Origin: Phenylobacterium sp.
Lineage (GTDB): Bacteria > Pseudomonadota > Alphaproteobacteria > Caulobacterales > Caulobacteraceae
Reading direction: 5' to 3'
Assembly (NCBI GenBank): GCA_020402745.1
Contig: JADBYZ010000002.1
Coordinates: 31,615 to 95,614 of the forward strand
Length of the DNA: 64,000 nt
Part shown: piece by piece, positions 56,794 through 64,000 of the stretch
How the letters are laid out: the number at the start of each line of letters is the position of its first letter
Numbering within the stretch: position 1 is the stretch's first letter
Translations under genes and position numbers: made by a program
Notes under the pieces: model-generated
Databases searched by the model: none
The model's input: the letters and a program-made list of their open reading frames with translations, nothing else
Told to the model about the DNA's origin: nothing

Positions 56794-58238
56794 ATGTCCA
56801 GCGCCCAGGCCGACACCGTCGACCGGCTGCCGCTTCGCACCAAGTTCTTCTTCGGGATCGGATCCGTCGGCGACTCCATCATCCTCGCCACGGTCGGCTC
56901 CTACGCCATGCTCTACTACAACCAGATCCTGGGGTTGAGCGCCGTCCTCGCCGGCCTTGCGGTTTCCGCCAGCCTCATCTTCGACGGTTTTGCGGATCCC
57001 GTCATCGGATCCCTGTCAGACCGTACCCGCGGCCGGTTCGGCCGGCGCCACGGCTATCTCTTCCTCGCCCCGCTCCCCATCGCCCTGTCGGTCATCGCGG
57101 TCTTCAATCCGCCGCCAGGGGCCTCCGACTTGGTCCTCTTCCTCTGGTTCGCCCTGTCGGTGAGCTTCATGCGGGTCTCGATCAGCCTCTTCAACACGCC
57201 TCACCTGGCCCTCGGCGGGGAGTTGTCCAGCGACTACATCGAACGCTCTAAGGTGCTGAGCTGGAACAACTTCTTCACCTGGGCGGGGGGGCGGGCATGA
57301 ACTTCCTGGCGCTCCATTTCGTCTTCAAGGCCACCCCCGAGTATCCGAGGGGCCTCCTCAATCCTGAACCTTATGGCCCCTTTGCGGTTGCATGTGGACT
57401 TGCGGCGATGGCCCTGCTGCTCACCTCGGCCTGGTTTACCCGAGACCAGATCGCCCGTCTCCCGAAGGCGCCGGAACAACTTCCGCGGTTCAGCCCCCTG
57501 GAGTTCCTCAAGGATGTAGGAAAGGCTCTTGGGAACCGGAACTACATGTGGCTCCTCATTGCGTTCTTCTTCCTGTCGATGATGATTGGCGTCAGAAGCG
57601 GCCTGAACCTTTACGTCAACACCTTCTTCTGGGGTCTCACGAGCGAGCAGCTGAAGTGGTTCGTGATCGGCAGCTTCGTTGGCTACGCCACCGGCTTCCT
57701 GTTCGCGGCCCGCATGCACCGGCGCCTCGACAAGCGGCTGAACATGATCATCTGGGCCATCGTCTTCTCGATCGGCCCCGCCGTCCCCATGATCCTCGGC
57801 CTGACGGGCGTCCTGAGCGCCGAGACGCCGGGCCTGACGCCCATGCTCATCGCCTTCTCGGCGGTGGGGAACGCCGGCGCCAGCGTGCTCAGCATCACAG
57901 TGATGTCCGCCCTCGCCGACATTGCCGACGAGAACGAGCTCGCCCATGGGGTCCGCCAGGAAGGGGTCCTCTACTCAACCCGTAACCTCGCCGCCAAGAT
58001 CGACCAGGCCCTGGGCGCCGCCCTGGCCGGGTTCGCCCTCTGGGTGATCAGCTTCCCGCCGAAGGCCAAGCCGGGCACAGTGCCTGACGAGGTTCTCTAC
58101 AACCTCGTCTTCGTGGATGGGGTCCTCGCCACCATCCCCGGCCTCATCGCCGCCGTCTGTTACGCCCGCTACAACATCACCCGGGCGCGGTACGACGCCA
58201 CCAAGGCGGCCCTGGCGGCGCGAAGGGCGGCGGCCTGA
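56794..58238 (+). pseudogene. GPH-type sugar (glycoside/pentoside) transporter split by a frameshift in a G run
   Basis: Two frames together encode one MFS/GPH symporter of about 480 residues. The first (56794-57300) has LPLRTKFFFGIGSVGDSIILATVGSYAMLYYNQILG and the loop DPVIGSLSDRTRGRFGRRHGY and stops after NNFFTWAGGRA. The second (57297-58238) continues NFLALHFVFKATPEYPRGLLNPEPYG and carries the remaining spans. The break lies in a run of seven G at 57286-57292: one more G would join the two as NNFFTWAGGAGMNF. The downstream ATG overlaps the upstream TGA (ATGA), so coupled translation of two half-transporters is also conceivable. Sequencing error, phase variation and true inactivation cannot be told apart here. 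Confidence 0.8.
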
Positions 58239-58299: not shown

Positions 58300-58376
58300 G
58301 GCCCGGTAGCTCAGCAGGATAGAGCAGCGCTTTCCTAAAGCGAAGGTCGGGGGTTCGAGTCCCTCCCGGGCCGCCA
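58300..58376 (+). tRNA. tRNA-Arg (anticodon CCU)
   Basis: 77-base cloverleaf with encoded CCA: acceptor GGCCCGG/CCGGGCC, D stem GCTC...GAGC, anticodon loop TTCCTAA giving CCT at positions 34-36, T arm GGGGGTTCGAGTCCCTC, discriminator G. The bottom pair of the anticodon stem is a G-A mismatch. It reads AGG codons. Confidence 0.93.
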
Positions 58377-58478
58377 GGCGGTCTCGTTCCCGGGTCGTGT
58401 TTAACGATTCGTTGAATTGTCTTGGCCTCGGACCTGGGCGAAGGTTCCACGGTCTGGGACGGGAACGGAGGGCGCTTT

Positions 58479-58907
58479 ATGCTGATCTCACAGATTCTTC
58501 GGGCCAAGGGCGATGCGGTGTTCACCGTCGCGCCCACAAATACGGTCGGCCGGGTTGCCGAGCTCCTGCACTCCAAACGTATCGGCGCCCTGGTGGTGAC
58601 GGAGGGTGATCGCGTGGTGGGCATTGTCTCGGAACGCGACATCGTCCGGGCGGTGGCGGGCGGCGACGGCAAGGTCACCTCGCGCCCGGTTTCCGCCTAC
58701 ATGACGGCGGACGTGGTGTTCGCAGAGCCGGGCGAAACCCTGGATTCGCTGCTCTCACGCATGACCGACCGGCGGTTTCGCCACCTGCCGGTCGTCCAGG
58801 CCGGGCGGCTGGTCGGCATTGTCTCCATCGGCGACCTGGTGAAATGGAAGATTTCCGAGGTCGAGGCCGAGGCGCACGGCCTGAAGGCCTACATCGCCGG
58901 GAGTTGA
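58479..58907 (+). CDS. Two-CBS-domain protein
   Basis: 142 residues with a CBS pair: GDAVFTVAPTNTVGRVAELLHSKRIGALVVTEGDRVVGIVSERDIVRAVA and TSRPVSAYMTADVVFAEPGETLDSLLSRMTDRRFRHLPVVQAGRLVGIVSIGDLVKW. Stand-alone CBS pairs bind adenine nucleotides or SAM and regulate partner enzymes or channels. ATG 58479 is preceded by GGAGGGC; longer frame upstream lacks a ribosome site. Last gene before the island. Confidence 0.85.
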   Translation: MLISQILRAKGDAVFTVAPTNTVGRVAELLHSKRIGALVVTEGDRVVGIVSERDIVRAVAGGDGKVTSRPVSAYMTADVVFAEPGETLDSLLSRMTDRRFRHLPVVQAGRLVGIVSIGDLVKWKISEVEAEAHGLKAYIAGS

Positions 58908-58924
58908 TCTCGAGGAGAGCTTCC

Positions 58925-58947
58925 TGGTGGAGCCGAGGGGAATCGAA
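58925..58947 (-). other. Island boundary: displaced 3' end of an alanine-type acceptor RNA (attachment site)
   Basis: On the minus strand this reads TTCGATTCCCC followed by TCGGCTCCACCA: the T-loop, 3' acceptor strand (with the U of a G3-U70 pair), discriminator A and CCA of tmRNA or tRNA-Ala. The upstream T-stem half is absent, so it is only the 3' tail. Such a tail next to a recombinase-bearing region is the classic left-over of integration into the 3' end of an RNA gene. By strand logic the intact RNA gene should lie beyond the right edge of the window. Confidence 0.7.
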
Positions 58948-59034
58948 ACACCCCTTGTTTTTCCAGGGTTTTTTCTGACCGAATGTTACAGGTGAGATTG
59001 TCGTTTGTAGCAGTCTCGGACCGGATCGCAAGGG

Positions 59035-59847
59035 CTATGCGGCTCCAATCAACGGAAGGGCTGCGGCCATCAACTCGCCAAACTGGGGTGTCAGCAATGC
59101 GCCTGCCGCTACTTCCTCAACGATGTTGCGAAGGGACTTCAGGCTTTCTCTCACGATCACGGCGCTAGGCGCGGGCTTGCTCAGCTGGGGCCGGATCGTC
59201 TCGATTTCCGCGCGGATCGCGGCTCTAGCCTGCTCGCTAAGGTCCACTTCGGCAGCAGCCCGATCAAACGCATCTAACGCCTGCTGCATGGAGCCAATAT
59301 CCAGTATGTTGGCGCTCTGCTGATGGGCATGGTTTCCCGCCTGCTGGATGTTTCCAACGGTCGCGCCATCGCCCACGTTGACGGTGTTGCTGGTCACAGA
59401 AACCTCCTCACGTGGCAAGCGGGGCCGCCATACGCCTGAACCGAACTCATATAGTTCTGCCAGCGGGTAGGCATCACCTCTATCGAGGATTTCGGCTAGG
59501 GCGTCTTCTGCGGCAGCCCCGTTTTGAGCGCCGCCAGACAGGACCGGTGCTCGGCTTTCTTTCATGAAATCGGCCAAGGAACCCCGGATGACATGACCAT
59601 GCTCGTTCCAGCTAGAGGTTACGTCGCCGGGCAAGCCCATCACCTCGGAAGGGCAACAATCAGCCAAATCCGCGAGGTGCTCATTGCGGACCTGTGCCCG
59701 CTGTTCTAGGCGGGGGCCGCTCTTTAGCAGGCCTCGGGCGGAGGACTCTGCCATGACTTGGCGCTGCGCCTCGGCCAACTGCCCGGACGCTTTCTCGGCG
59801 TGACGTTGAATACGCCGATCAAAAGCGTCGCGAAAGGCCACGCTCAC
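59035..59847 (-). CDS. Island gene B: hinge-containing protein with helical C-terminal domain
   Basis: 270 residues. N-terminal part (about 1-145) helical and without known motifs. Residues about 150-175 form a low-complexity hinge (SVTSNTVNVGDGATVGNIQQ then AGNHAHQQS). The last 95 residues are a helical module (DAFDRAAAEVDLSEQARAAI ... VIVRESLKSLRNIVEEVAAG). That hinge-plus-helices layout is like the end of AbiTii-type abortive-infection proteins, as far as I can judge by eye. GTG start overlaps the stop of gene A (GTGA), so the two are a coupled pair. No hydrophobic span, apart from a weakly hydrophobic end. Role in defence is an inference from layout and island context. Confidence 0.65.
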   Translation of the reverse strand: MSVAFRDAFDRRIQRHAEKASGQLAEAQRQVMAESSARGLLKSGPRLEQRAQVRNEHLADLADCCPSEVMGLPGDVTSSWNEHGHVIRGSLADFMKESRAPVLSGGAQNGAAAEDALAEILDRGDAYPLAELYEFGSGVWRPRLPREEVSVTSNTVNVGDGATVGNIQQAGNHAHQQSANILDIGSMQQALDAFDRAAAEVDLSEQARAAIRAEIETIRPQLSKPAPSAVIVRESLKSLRNIVEEVAAGALLTPQFGELMAAALPLIGAA

Positions 59848-60395
59848 TCTGCGTTCCCCCGCTGGGCTGAGTTAGCGCCGGACTGCTGGACGTTCCCCAC
59901 TTGGGAGTCGGTGATATTCGCCACGTTGATTATGACCGGTGAGCTTGGATCACCTGGCAGCGTGTACATCCCAAGCTCGTATTCTCGGAACACCTCGCCT
60001 TGCAGATCAATGAGGTTCGCACGCACCACGTCAGCGCGACTGTCTCCGGTTGATGCGCTGGACGCGAACGCCGGATCGGGCGCGGGCACTAACTGTGTCA
60101 CCAGCGCGTCGCGGTGTGCGGCGAGCAACTCCGATGCCGCTCCTAGCAAATCACACTCAGTCAGCGTTCCCCGGGCGGACATCTTGCGGCACTCACCCAA
60201 CGCGAGTTCCATCGCTGATACAAACTGGACTTTCGCCAAGTGCTCTCGTTGATGGCGATGCGCTGAACCCTCGAAGGCCCCGTGTTTCACAGCCTGAAGG
60301 TTAAGCTGCTGCTTGGCCTCTTCCGCCGAATCGAGGGCCACCCCGAGAAGTCGCCCGAGCCGCCGCCTGAAGGCATCCAAGGTTGGTTCGCCCAT
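59844..60395 (-). CDS. Island gene A: hinge-ending helical protein, partner of gene B
   Basis: 183 residues. Mostly helical N-terminal 110 residues (RRRLGRLLGVALDSAEEAKQ; HLAKVQFVSAMELALGECRKM). It then has a segment that parallels gene B (REYELGMYTLPGDPSSPVIINVANI) and ends in the hinge sequence TDSQVGNVQQSGANSAQ. Gene B has ELYEFGSGVWRPRLP and then its own VGNIQQ hinge at the matching point, so the two share a local homologous stretch around the hinge. In A translation stops there; in B an extra helical domain follows. No known domain otherwise. Follows the DUF2188 gene by four bases. Confidence 0.65.
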   Translation of the reverse strand: MGEPTLDAFRRRLGRLLGVALDSAEEAKQQLNLQAVKHGAFEGSAHRHQREHLAKVQFVSAMELALGECRKMSARGTLTECDLLGAASELLAAHRDALVTQLVPAPDPAFASSASTGDSRADVVRANLIDLQGEVFREYELGMYTLPGDPSSPVIINVANITDSQVGNVQQSGANSAQRGNAE

Positions 60396-60399
60396 TGTG

Positions 60400-60642
60400 C
60401 TATTTCATATCCCGAGGGGGGAAGGGGTCATTGCCCGGTGCAATCGTATCACTGTCGCGGAACTTGCCGTCGCGCCCCTGGGTGACGACCTCGCCACCAC
60501 CTGCATTGGCCACGATCTGCCGGGCTGCGGCATGAGCTTCGGCTTGGGTATCGAAGACGCGGCTAGCGCGCTTCGCGCCAGGAGCCTTCACGGCCCAACC
60601 CTCGGGATGGTTCACCACGAACCGGTCGCTCTTCTTGACCAT
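60400..60642 (-). CDS. DUF2188 family protein
   Basis: 80 residues. DRFVVNHPEGWAVKAPGAKRASRVFDTQAEAHAAARQIVANAGGGEVVTQGRDGKFRDSDT follows the DUF2188 pattern: short beta hairpins with W-V/VK and a conserved G-R-D-G-K-F-R-D end. Function unknown; frequent in mobile regions. First gene of the three-gene minus unit with A and B. ATG at 60642 follows AGAGGGGCC; an earlier start has no such site. The 276 bases upstream to 60918 hold only the presumed promoter of this unit. Confidence 0.75.
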   Translation of the reverse strand: MVKKSDRFVVNHPEGWAVKAPGAKRASRVFDTQAEAHAAARQIVANAGGGEVVTQGRDGKFRDSDTIAPGNDPFPPRDMK

Positions 60643-60918
60643 TGAAGGCCCCTCTTTCTGAACACTCTGACCATAGGTGGGGAACCGGCACTTTGCGGTC
60701 AAGCGTTCGTGGTGCGTTCTTTTTCTGGATTGACGATGGCCCCGCCTCTAGTCTCGTCCGCCCGAGGCTCGCGGGTTCTTTGCGCGCCACAGTAAGACGC
60801 GAGCAACACCGCTATGAAGGTGGCGGATTCTGCGCCAGATAGGGCCCATGAGCCAACCGGAAGTCACTAGGCGACTCGACGCGCCGCACTCCGCACAGGT
60901 GGATGCGAGGCGGAGACG

Positions 60919-61215
60919 GATCGGCATGGGAGTATGCCCGATGTCATTATCTACGACACCGAGAGAAGCTGGCTTGTCCTTGCGAAGGCGGTGGCCAGTC
61001 ACGGCCCTGTCGATGGAAAGCGGTGAGACAAATTGAAACACCTTTTCGGGGGCGCGAAGGCTGGGCTTGTCTACGTCACCCCTTTCCCGACGAGGGCGGT
61101 TAGGGCGAGGTATCTCACCGAGGTTACGTGGGAAACCGAAGTCTGGGTCTCAGAAGCGCCGACCCACCTCGTTCATTTCAACGGCGTCCGTTTCCTTGGA
61201 CCATATGAAAACTAG
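60919..61215 (+). pseudogene. Remnant of a BsuBI/PstI-type restriction endonuclease (C-terminal domain)
   Basis: In one frame the DNA reads DRHGSMPDVIIYDTERSW then LVLAKAVASHGPVDGKR, a TGA stop at 61024-61026, and DKLKHLFGGAKAGLVYVTPF followed by TEVTWETEVWVSEAP and HLVHFNGVRFLGPYEN. This matches block for block the C-terminal nuclease domain of the BsuBI/PstI family (PDVV-Y, EAV-SHGP--KR, TAFP, WETEVW, HFNG-RFLGP). Two lesions: the in-frame TGA, and Lys instead of the catalytic Glu in the EAV motif (AKAV). The N-terminal two thirds is missing and no partner methylase is visible, so the enzyme is dead. Confidence 0.82.
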
Positions 61216-61454
61216 TCACCCGACGACCTAGTTTTGGCCCGCTGTCGCGCGACTCCACCTGAGACTTCTTGGAGAAGGGTCGCCCCCATCGGGGGCCGGT
61301 CAGCGTCCTCCGGTCAAAAAAGGCATCGCCTCATTTGGGTATACCCTCACGAGACAGCAACGCGAGACGCCTTAAGCGTACCAATAGGGTTGACTTGGGA
61401 TTCTGGGACGGGCTAAGTCTCGAACTCTAGAGCCTATTGAGACAGGAGGCCGCA
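61216..61454. other. Gap before the serine recombinase
   Basis: 239 bases with no gene. TTGACT at 61390-61395 could be a -35 for the recombinase operon. Short inverted units around CTCGAACTCTAGAG (61423-61436) and the complementary GGGGGCCGG/CCCCCATCGGGGG near 61284-61302 might belong to a recombinase res-type site, but I cannot define one. Confidence 0.3.
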
Positions 61455-62009
61455 ATGGCGACCGTCGGTTATGCCCGTGTCAGTTCCACGGGACAGAGCT
61501 TGGAAGTCCAGGATGAGCAACTTCGTGCCGCAGGGTGCGAGAAGGTGTTCTCGGAGAAGGTGACGGGCACCACCACCGAGGGCCGCGAACAACTGGAGGC
61601 TGCCTTGGATTATGCGCGAGAGGGTGATGTGCTCATTGTCACCCGCCTTGACCGCCTCGCACGATCACTTGTCGATCTTCGCAAGATCATCGACCGGCTG
61701 ACCGCCAAGGGCTGCGCCTTCCGGGCGCTACAGCAGGGAGCCATCGACACCACCCGCTCTGATGGCCGGCTTATGCTCAACATTCTCGCGAGCTTTGCCG
61801 AGTTCGAGACGGACATCCGCAAGGAGCGGCAGATGGAAGGCATCGCAAAGGCCAAGGCTGCGAACCTCTACAAGGGACGCAAGCCGTCTGTCCCAGTGGA
61901 GGAAGTGCGGCGGCTCGCGGGCGAGGGCGTCGGCCCCACGGACATCGCGAAGCGGCTGGGGATCGGGCGGGCGTCAGTCTATCGCGCACTGTCACCTGAG
62001 GCCGCGTGA
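61455..62009 (+). CDS. Serine recombinase (resolvase/invertase family)
   Basis: 184 residues. TVGYARVSSTGQSLEVQDEQL holds the catalytic Ser, and IVTRLDRLARSLVDLRKIIDRL, NILASFAEFETDIRKERQMEGI give the rest of the active site and the long E helix. The C-terminal helix-turn-helix is RRLAGEGVGPTDIAKRLGIGRASVYRAL. Complete small resolvase-type enzyme. AGGAGG six bases before the ATG. Its stop overlaps the start of the polymerase gene (GTGA), so the two proteins are made together. Confidence 0.95.
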   Translation: MATVGYARVSSTGQSLEVQDEQLRAAGCEKVFSEKVTGTTTEGREQLEAALDYAREGDVLIVTRLDRLARSLVDLRKIIDRLTAKGCAFRALQQGAIDTTRSDGRLMLNILASFAEFETDIRKERQMEGIAKAKAANLYKGRKPSVPVEEVRRLAGEGVGPTDIAKRLGIGRASVYRALSPEAA

Positions 62010-63367
62010 CACAGGCACTCGACGACCAGACGCCGGATAGGCCACGTCCGTCCGCAGCCGAGCTCTTCCGGCGCGCACAGTTCACGGGTGAGGAGCTTCG
62101 GAACTTCCGACACCTGGACCCCGAGCGGACCTTGGCGGGCGACGCTGGCGCGGCGCTCCTGTCCCGCGTGGTGTCGCTAGCAGAGACCCATGAGGCGCGG
62201 CAGCGGGCGCTAAAGCCCGAGGCCGCGAAGTCCAGGGTCCTGACCGCCTCCACGCTGCTGGCGAACCTCGCGAGCCTCGCGCTCAACAGGGTGGATGACA
62301 CGCGCTTTCTTGCCGTGCCGTTCAATCGGAACGCCTATGCGAACACACACCTCAGTCTGTCGGCAATGTCGATGTTCCGGGACGCCATGCTCACGAGCGG
62401 CCTGATTGAGGGTAGCGCGGGCGGGCGGCGCATGAGGCCGGACGATACGGCTTTCGGATGGCTGACCCGCATGAGGGCTACACCGACCCTGCGCACGATC
62501 TTCGCGGATTGTCGGATCAGCTACGCCTCGATACGGCGGACGGTGGGTGACGTGCTGATCTTGCGGGATCGAAAAGCAGGCGTCCCGACCGACCCGCCCA
62601 TCGACGTGGAGACGACGCGCCAAACGCTGGCAATCGTCAACCGGCGCATTGAAGCTGCCAAGATCGAACTGCCGCAGGATGCTTGGGCGCGTGTCACGCC
62701 CGGCATTGTAGACGCCATGCACCTGGAGGAAGAGGACCGCGCACCCGCTGGCGACCTTGTGGGCAAGTCCCTGGTCCGGCTCTTCAAGTACGATTGGAGG
62801 CACGGCGGACGGCTCTACGGCGGCTGGTGGATGAGCTTGCCGAAACGAGAACGGCTGCTGCTGACTATCGATGGCGAGGCGGTGGCGGAACTCGATTACG
62901 GCCAGCTACACCCTTCGATCCTCTATGCCCGTATCCACGAGGAGCTAGAGGGCGACGCCTACACAGTTGGCGATTGGACTTCTCCGCCGACGCGGGACCT
63001 TGGGAAGACGACCTTCGCCAGGATGCTGAACACGACCACCGATGACGGCGAACCGCGCGCTATCCAGATGGCGGATGGGGATGCGGAAAAGCTGCCGCCC
63101 GGCGTTACCTGGGAAGAGTACCTTGCCGCCTTCCAACGGAGACTAGCGCCGATTGCCGATCGTTTCTGGATTGGCGAGGGCCTGCGGCTGCAACGGGAAG
63201 ATAGCGACATCGCGGTATCGGTGCTGGCGACAATGGAAGAACACGGCGTCACGACACTGCCAGTCCATGACAGCTTCATTGTGCCTAAGCAGCATAGGCA
63301 ACTCCTGCGCTATGCCATGACGAAGGCCTATAGGGAGAAGTTTTACTATCACCCCACGATCAAGTGA
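62006..63367 (+). CDS. Stand-alone polymerase with family-A palm motifs (TV-Pol-like)
   Basis: 453 residues. Three spaced motifs match the palm of superfamily A polymerases. Motif A is EAVAELDYGQLHPSILYAR with the metal-binding Asp and an H-P after it, a basic finger-helix motif is SPPTRDLGKTTFARMLNTT (R...K), and motif C is TLPVHDSFIVP (VHD). No 3'-5' exonuclease or helicase is attached; the first 280 residues are helical with WWMSLPKRERLLLTIDGE just before motif A. This is what was described as the TV-Pol family of polymerases/primases in bacterial mobile elements and Sputnik-like viruses (Iyer, Abhiman and Aravind). GTG start inside the recombinase stop. It presumably replicates the island or primes its copying. 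Confidence 0.72.
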   Translation: MTQALDDQTPDRPRPSAAELFRRAQFTGEELRNFRHLDPERTLAGDAGAALLSRVVSLAETHEARQRALKPEAAKSRVLTASTLLANLASLALNRVDDTRFLAVPFNRNAYANTHLSLSAMSMFRDAMLTSGLIEGSAGGRRMRPDDTAFGWLTRMRATPTLRTIFADCRISYASIRRTVGDVLILRDRKAGVPTDPPIDVETTRQTLAIVNRRIEAAKIELPQDAWARVTPGIVDAMHLEEEDRAPAGDLVGKSLVRLFKYDWRHGGRLYGGWWMSLPKRERLLLTIDGEAVAELDYGQLHPSILYARIHEELEGDAYTVGDWTSPPTRDLGKTTFARMLNTTTDDGEPRAIQMADGDAEKLPPGVTWEEYLAAFQRRLAPIADRFWIGEGLRLQREDSDIAVSVLATMEEHGVTTLPVHDSFIVPKQHRQLLRYAMTKAYREKFYYHPTIK

Positions 63368-63585
63368 GGGTTTGTAGTCCAGGCCAACCCGGGGGAGGGG
63401 AACGCGGGGGGACATAACTAAGACGCATAAGCCGCCCATGCATGGGGCTCACTGGACGGCCTGAACCGGACACCGGACGCGCACCGTCACCCCGCGCCAA
63501 GCCCCTCAGGAGCCCTCAGGAGCCCTGTCCGCCCGCCCGCGAGGCAGGTACATGGGGCGAAGTTTGAGCCCGTCTGGAGCCTCCC

Positions 63586-63912
63586 CTGTCGAAACCTGCC
63601 CGCCCCTATGGACCGAACAGCGACGGTCGGTTCGCGCTCCACCAGCGCCAGCCCCGCGCCGACAAGCTGGACGCCCGACAACGAGCGATCTGCAATGCCG
63701 ATCCAGCCTATGCCGAAGCCCTTCGGCAGCGCGTCTCAAACGAGGGTCGGTTCTCTGCCTTCATGGCGAACGTGCCGTCCTACATCGACATCGACGGGCT
63801 CTGCCCACGGTGCGGAAACTTCCGGCGACGGACCCGAGACCGATCCTGCTACGCCTGTCACCTAGAGCGGTTTCCCTGCGCTGTGAATCGGGAGGGATTC
63901 CCAAATCAGTGA
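63586..63912 (+). CDS. Zinc-ribbon protein with apparent CTG start, 3' end altered by an IS element
   Basis: An open frame with strong coding character but no ATG, GTG or TTG at its head: it reads LSKPARPYGPNSDGRF, then RADKLDARQRAICNADPAYAEALRQR, VPSYIDIDGLCPRCGNFRRR and RSCYACHLER. CPRC and CYAC make a four-cysteine zinc ribbon. A CTG at 63586 has GGAG exactly six bases upstream (63576-63579) and is the best start; an internal ATG at 63763 would give only 50 residues. After CYACH the frame enters what looks like IS sequence, so the last about 15 residues are foreign. Confidence 0.6.
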   Translation: MSKPARPYGPNSDGRFALHQRQPRADKLDARQRAICNADPAYAEALRQRVSNEGRFSAFMANVPSYIDIDGLCPRCGNFRRRTRDRSCYACHLERFPCAVNREGFPNQ

Positions 63913-64000
63913 TGGGGTGATTCAAGCTGCATGCTGGTGAAGGAGGCCGGCATGCATGGGTCATCCTTTGTCATGTGATCTTCGAGATCGGGCGTTGGCG
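63865..64000 (+). mobile_element. Left end of an IS630-family insertion sequence (cut by window edge)
   Basis: Sequence character changes at the TA dinucleotide 63863-63864, the target type of IS630 elements, and a transposase starts at 63956. The stretch between contains the nested inverted units GAATC...GATTC (63885-63900 and 63918-63922). The right end and the inverted repeats cannot be checked because the window stops. The exact left boundary is an estimate. Confidence 0.55.
63956..64000 (+). CDS. IS630-family transposase, N-terminal start only
   Basis: The last 45 bases read MGHPLSCDLRDRALA, the typical opening of IS630 transposases (S-x-D-L-R-x-R before the helix-turn-helix). GGAGG lies ten bases upstream of the ATG. 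The DDE catalytic domain is outside the window. Confidence 0.65.
   Translation, partial: MGHPLSCDLRDRALA

Follow-up and report, generated by a model that had tools for sequence, protein, structure and literature searches.

We analysed a 64,000-nucleotide stretch of the Phenylobacterium sp. assembly GCA_020402745.1 (contig JADBYZ010000002.1, positions 31,615 to 95,614, or G000:C12:31615-95614 in our numbering of its 2.87-Mb, 46-contig genome), hereafter the window, whose last base is also the end of the contig. Close to that end lie two overlapping genes, for a small serine recombinase and a stand-alone polymerase, which are the subject of this analysis together with the DNA around them:

61455..62009, plus strand: small serine recombinase of the gamma-delta/Tn3 resolvase type, 184 amino acids (aa), from Pfam, PDB matches and residue alignment
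62006..62009, plus strand: GTGA overlap, holding the polymerase GTG start and the resolvase TGA stop
62006..63367, plus strand: stand-alone A-family polymerase of the TV-Pol/divPolA2 type, 453 aa
62216..62509, plus strand: N-terminal polymerase domain with predicted winged-helix topology, residues ~71-168 (model predicted local distance difference test, pLDDT, 90.9)
62894..62896, plus strand: codon of motif A Asp297, conserved in 114/114 family members and aligned with motif A of the host PolA
63269..63271, plus strand: codon of motif C Asp422 (HD), conserved in 111/111

Both reading frames are intact, with GC content highest at third codon positions (0.746 and 0.762, respectively), and the shared GTGA confirms the coupled recombinase-polymerase pair that an earlier note on this DNA had described. 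That note proposed looking for the same pair in other genomes, and a second overlapping pair is present in a member of the Sphingomonadaceae (locus L248), where the overlap reads TAATG and the recombinases and polymerases are 67% and 31% identical to those of the window. The L248 pair shares its contig stretch with an integrase gene and a tRNA-Leu gene, and a search for tRNA-3'-end repeats found none bounding it.

To the left of the pair, conserved chromosomal sequence gives way at a fragment of a tRNA gene, and to its right the contig breaks off in a repeat:

58300..58376, plus strand: tRNA-Arg(CCT) in the left flank (ARAGORN, Rfam)
58422..58907, plus strand: conserved chromosomal flank gene (open reading frame, ORF, conserved in the genus), which we take to encode a CBS-domain protein
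58925..58947, minus strand: attL-like remnant, the last 23 nucleotides (nt) of tRNA-Ala(CGC), identical to the tRNA 3' end at locus L064; left island edge
63863..64000, plus strand: repeat that matches a segment close to the end of contig C19 at 138/138 bases

Four genomes of the genus share the sequence from about 58397 to 58941 with 86-90% conservation, and similarity of the window to same-genus genomes breaks off past the tRNA-Ala remnant. At L067 (G339), in the same genus, an intact tRNA-Ala(CGC) directly follows the flank gene, which gives the uninterrupted form of the site, while at L062, L064 and L066 other DNA separates the two. Used as a query against the window's own genome, the tRNA-Ala(CGC) locus was matched by just 28 nt at the remnant and otherwise by other tRNA genes or short matches, so no intact tRNA-Ala(CGC) was found in the assembly with this sequence. 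Contig C7 opens with the right chromosomal flank, at a point some 1.3-1.5 kb past the tRNA position of relatives. Both an integrase and the right island end are absent from the window's contig; its final 138 bases are found again at the end of C19, so the assembly was broken by a repeat, perhaps an insertion sequence that starts here. GC content is 0.622 in 58948-63862 against 0.677 in 1-58924, a contrast tempered by 32-35 kb of the window, where GC is lower still (0.57-0.59). The possible insertion-sequence repeat, which starts 496 bp after the polymerase, would fit a decayed remnant with no present function, but the intact frames, the GC-rich third codon positions and the kept catalytic residues argue against decay, and we regard this as quite improbable.

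The surroundings of the polymerase were compared across 116 non-redundant loci obtained from searches seeded with the window polymerase and its relatives. The genome-contig scan is represented by the best 80 of 243 confirmed loci, and with such seeded sampling all frequencies over the 116 loci describe this sample only. Left out were the near-duplicates L016, L017, L189 and L231 (100% identical to L244 of Phenylobacterium sp. MS003, L260, L015 and L128, in that order), L138-L141 (one family with degenerate homologues) and eight viral contigs; the flank survey excludes a match in G513 (a 71-aa frame) and plasmid and phage records, and counts the two copies at L136 as one locus. Matches to the polymerase were obtained in 12 of the 299 genomes screened in the order and in 29 of the 385 in the class, own genome included in each, and the best 80 of the 243 loci include records from Desulfovibrio, Nitrosomonas, Methylophaga and Amphritea. 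Plasmid protein searches returned just 3 and 2 records and phage searches 65, mostly from Vibrio; viral contigs gave no match in a single-protein scan and 8 matches with a four-row alignment.

Many of these relatives show the architecture of tRNA-targeted islands. A tyrosine integrase gene lies in the fetched flank of 84/116 loci, the integrases falling in three clusters (30 of the 31 founding candidates of the first set match Pfam Phage_integrase), and a tRNA gene lies in that of 70/116. The nearest tRNA turns its 3' end towards the polymerase in 63 of the 70 and away from it in 7, the window counting among the 63 through its nearest tRNA, tRNA-Arg, and not through the tRNA-Ala remnant. Where at least 7 kb was available on both sides, a tRNA occurred within 7 kb at 41/65 loci (38 of the 41 facing the polymerase), compared to 3 of 20 control windows of the same span, placed by hand away from polymerase genes and drawn from 19 of the same genomes. 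At 35/116 loci the far side of the polymerase holds a direct repeat of at least 15 nt that reaches the tRNA 3' end; the islands delimited in this way measure 4199-13867 bp (median 8339), an example being the 7.1-kb island between tRNA-His repeats in Novosphingobium ovatum FSY-8 (L182). As a null for such repeats, any copy of 15 nt from the tRNA 3' part lay behind the tRNA for 2 of 82 tRNAs, under a rule and sequence lengths slightly different from those of the island search. Of the 14 bounded islands in the first set, 10 carry their integrase at the end with the tRNA and 4 at the opposite end (L018, L119, L122, L128), and 13 have a lower GC content than their flanks.

These results do not support the proposal of the earlier note of a minimal transposition unit that copies itself: the pair adjoins a tRNA-Ala(CGC) remnant resembling an island end, a good share of its relatives are bounded islands with a tyrosine integrase, and the two genes overlap at just 2/116 loci, the window and L248. 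The model behind that proposal, in which the serine recombinase moves the element, the polymerase copies it during transposition and no tyrosine integrase is needed, is not new, since Iyer et al. (2008; PMC2579912) had already put it forward in passages that report near-identical copies of TV-Pol/resolvase elements flanked by direct repeats of ~200 nt. It draws further support from the gene overlaps here and in L248 and from a 9-kb tandem duplication at L136 that holds a TV-Pol and a serine recombinase, but the visible edge of the element is a tRNA 3' remnant and the element is present in single copy in its own genome. Moreover, small serine recombinases occur at just 28/116 loci, of which 23 also have a tyrosine integrase and 19 a tRNA. 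We consider replicative transposition improbable, and a tyrosine integrase, although none is seen here, is more likely to be the mover than the serine recombinase. A Tn3-type transposon was likewise rejected, no transposase being recognised among the island ORFs scanned in a region cut by the contig end.

We think it probable, with some reserve, that both genes belong to an island integrated into the 3' end of tRNA-Ala(CGC) in a Phenylobacterium-type alphaproteobacterium, with the following mechanism. A tyrosine integrase, by analogy with relatives and encoded off this contig, would insert the island at the tRNA and excise it. Through its winged-helix-like N-terminal domain, the TV-Pol-type protein would next attach to the excised circle and start DNA synthesis on it as primase and/or polymerase, after which the host replisome would take over. 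The co-translated small serine recombinase would resolve multimers of the circle at a res-like site upstream of its own gene and perhaps regulate its own expression; we infer multimer resolution as its role because the gene is optional among relatives and mostly accompanied by a tyrosine integrase. The polymerase family recurs in many such islands, where it probably starts the copying of the excised element. On a broader and more tentative view, relatives of this element could form a widespread, mostly unrecognised group of small tRNA-targeted islands, about 4-14 kb long and found in Alphaproteobacteria as well as other bacteria; the product of their constant replication gene, a winged-helix/A-family polymerase, would be an origin-specific initiator and primase-polymerase. 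Such islands, often with defence genes, would be the A-family counterpart of pipolins, divPolA2 would be the same enzyme in tailed phages, and in some of them the co-translated resolvase would keep the circle monomeric.

The polymerase itself shows several features of a TV-Pol. Both palm aspartates of the A superfamily are kept in a predicted palm fold, and the hairpin Arg before motif A (R269), which is invariant in TV-Pol, is conserved in 115/115 family members, with hairpin strands at 256-260 and 267-272 in the model. The fingers residues comprise D317 (106/113), taken as the fingers Asp, and an RxxxK motif of R330 (113/114) and K334 (113/113), and the thumb region, which in TV-Pol consists of two antiparallel helices, is modelled as one long helix (199-217) followed by a low-confidence segment (231-248). 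The family-A palm suggested in the earlier note is thus supported by structural prediction, and both catalytic aspartates that it proposed to check, in motifs A and C, are intact. Kinship with Pol I could not be proven at the sequence level: the polymerase has no Pfam or NCBIfam match, a 12-row profile had no credible PDB match, and hhalign of the family against the host's own PolA gave a probability of 0.4 and an E value of 0.15, with motif A aligned as expected. The palm assignment is accordingly one of predicted structure and motifs. Microcystis phage Ma-LMM01, which carries a TV-Pol named in 2008, was not matched by the A1 query at E<=0.01 and gave nothing above the inclusion threshold with a 39-row profile, so that membership in TV-Pol follows from shared features rather than from direct homology to a named member. 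The island architecture supplies the mobile-element context of TV-Pol without nuclease linkage, and passages of Iyer et al. report no nuclease linkage of TV-Pol (PMC2579912); RNase HI genes adjoin the polymerase in 4 loci (L133, L122, L113, L023), directly upstream in L023 and L122. A D5-helicase-linked TV-Pol was rejected, as no helicase was recognised in this copy.

The same polymerase could instead be no DNA replicase but an RNA polymerase or primase, confined to transcribing island genes or to making RNA primers. Its structural matches include initiating mitochondrial RNA polymerase and T7 RNA polymerase, and an RNA polymerase was also raised for divPolA2 in passages by its authors (PMC11348598). 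At the fifth residue past the motif A Asp, where the host PolA has Glu, His is found in 85/114 family members and Glu in 0/114, and the corresponding Glu of E. coli Pol I, E710, is described as helping to exclude ribonucleotides. Together with the adjoining RNase HI genes, these points speak for this alternative, which we nevertheless think unlikely.

The link to divPolA2 comes from phage proteins. The third match in BFVD is a 435-aa 'DNA polymerase' of Rheinheimera phage Barba31A, which belongs to a phage group in which divPolA2 was found, according to passages of PMC11348598. The divPolA2 representative AUR84708 was matched by the 39-row family profile over positions 41-437 of 484 (117 bits, hmmsearch), and the N-terminal profile alone gave a marginal 4.0 bits. 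The N-terminus may be a winged helix, as modelled: its winged-helix matches are weak but consistent, and those in PDB are not independent, as 20 of the 31 listed are PadR- or LmrR-type and many are variants of one protein.

Phages encoding the same family, and the restriction-modification, OLD/Gabija-like ATPase and DUF4062 genes found in some islands, would also be expected if the polymerase were cargo, namely a phage-defence protein in a defence-carrying island. Eight genes from seven islands, picked as defence-like and therefore giving no estimate of frequency, all matched PADLOC models; they include type I and II methyltransferases, AriA/OLD-like and LmuB-like ATPases, a type III restriction-like helicase and a DUF4062 protein, and L126:10720-12924 matches its model over its last ~30 residues only. 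However, the polymerase is constant while other genes vary and lies near the integrase in many loci. In addition, no PADLOC model (2023 set, E 0.01) matches the window polymerase or three relatives (4/4 tried), which speaks mildly against a defence role of the polymerase, and we hold this explanation to be very improbable.

The recombinase matches Pfam Resolvase (E 1.4e-40) and HTH_7, and its nearest solved proteins are gamma-delta/Tn3 resolvases and DNA invertases, the six best of them with E values from 2.2e-26 to 1.4e-24. It has the catalytic Ser and Arg, the C-terminal helix-turn-helix and the length of about 185 aa of a gamma-delta resolvase, and the catalytic residues are conserved in 18/18 aligned small serine recombinases. 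Its closest counterpart among those compared is that of L184 (Caulobacter sp. SLTY; 71% identity), followed by that of L248. At L113 the recombinase and polymerase genes are on the same strand with a 441-nt gap. Upstream of the resolvase gene, short repeats mark a candidate recombination or operator site:

61351..61443, no strand assigned: possible res/operator site, with GAGAC at 61351, 61364 and 61439 and GTCTC at 61417

Across 18 loci, GAGAC or TCTCA is the commonest 5-mer upstream of the resolvase in 11, and the count of the commonest 5-mer was reached by 0-1 of 300 shuffles in six loci (L195, L235, L232, L257, L242, L113), by 3-14 in L244, L020 and L233, and by at least 47 in another eight. 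A significant res array in the window alone was rejected, as 32 of 300 shuffles attain its count. These 5-mers fit, without proving, a res or operator site in some loci.

Between the left island edge and the pair, three ORFs lie on the minus strand:

59035..59847, minus strand: ORF of 270 aa without assigned function, with a weak match to the PADLOC candidate PDC-M14B (best E 8e-5)
59844..60395, minus strand: ORF of 183 aa overlapping the 270-aa ORF, with no family match
60400..60702, minus strand: DUF2188 protein (Pfam PF09954, E 2.3e-20)

Both the 270-aa and the 183-aa ORF contain a GN(V/I)QQ stretch. In the left flank, the neighbour to the right of tRNA-Arg(CCT) differs in same-genus genomes, with blastn breakpoints between 58376 and 58401; the tRNA adjoins the conserved flank gene here and is on a different contig from it in close same-genus genomes, and 58300-58401 is possibly another integration hotspot. 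Further left, a sugar:cation symporter occupies two overlapping ORFs (56794-58238; 168 and 313 aa) that match successive parts of MFS_2, either as a split gene or through a frameshift.

Several relatives have further peculiarities. The L136/L137 duplication (G455, contig C14; period 8949) also contains ORFs resembling, by eye, ParA and a plasmid Rep protein, and a circular episome was rejected there in favour of a tandem duplication with non-repeating flanks. L138-L141 (G670, G590, G492 and G359, one family with ~1.4-Mb genomes) encode, amid conserved neighbouring genes, a homologue some 455 aa long, which matches mainly the N-terminal part of the profile, has lost the hairpin Arg in L138 by replacement, and is possibly a domesticated, degenerate copy. 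The polymerase homologue is in two pieces or two ORFs at L118, L219, L238 and L256, which may reflect decay of some islands or the presence of two copies in them. L110 has ORFs resembling metal-resistance genes by eye, and at L017 a thymidylate synthase gene adjoins the polymerase.

Among known systems, the TV-Pol elements of Iyer, Abhiman and Aravind (2008; PMC2579912) are alike, as far as their passages go, in having a stand-alone polymerase of 400-600 aa with the hairpin Arg, two palm Asp, fingers Asp and RxxxK, an extra N-terminal domain, no nuclease, a neighbouring gamma-delta resolvase and a bacterial mobile element as carrier. The same source mentions lambda-type integrases and restriction-modification hot spots. 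Their N-terminal domain was predicted to be all-helical, whereas winged-helix topology is modelled here, and the relatives described here are in tRNA-targeted islands bounded by tRNA 3'-end repeats, while 'tRNA' occurs 0 times in the 2008 main text. No account of TV-Pol islands integrated at tRNA genes emerged from the open-licence literature, covered mostly as titles and abstracts. The prediction of 2008 that TV-Pols serve mobile elements as primase-polymerases (PMC2579912) becomes testable through bounded islands of 4-14 kb and, for the window, an uninterrupted form of the site.

A-family polymerases of integrative elements are also known from CcPol-MP of SCCmec and the PolA-SSB primases (PMC7581432, PMC10061031), and CcPol-MP is reported in these sources to prime DNA synthesis with a partner. 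CcPol-MP differs in its OB-fold partner, in having no N-terminal domain, and in the serine recombinases and helicase alongside; no partner of the CcPol kind was recognised here, with no profile search aimed at one. Pipolins, as outlined in PMC7385651, are similarly tRNA-integrated, with att repeats, one or more tyrosine recombinases, variable genes and a constant self-encoded polymerase, but theirs is a B-family enzyme with priming capacity (piPolB) where the palm here is of the A family; the window island is not a pipolin and at most works like one. The divPolA2 of tailed phages, in the passages of PMC11348598, which use the name TV-Pol a single time, for the PolA of certain small viruses, shares with the window polymerase the palm, the lack of an exonuclease, an unassigned N-terminal domain and a similar match to mitochondrial RNA polymerase, and differs in being encoded in phage genomes with variable neighbourhoods instead of integrated islands. 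This likeness suggests that one enzyme family is common to phages and the chromosomal islands of their hosts, a link that gives a candidate role to genes without a family name.
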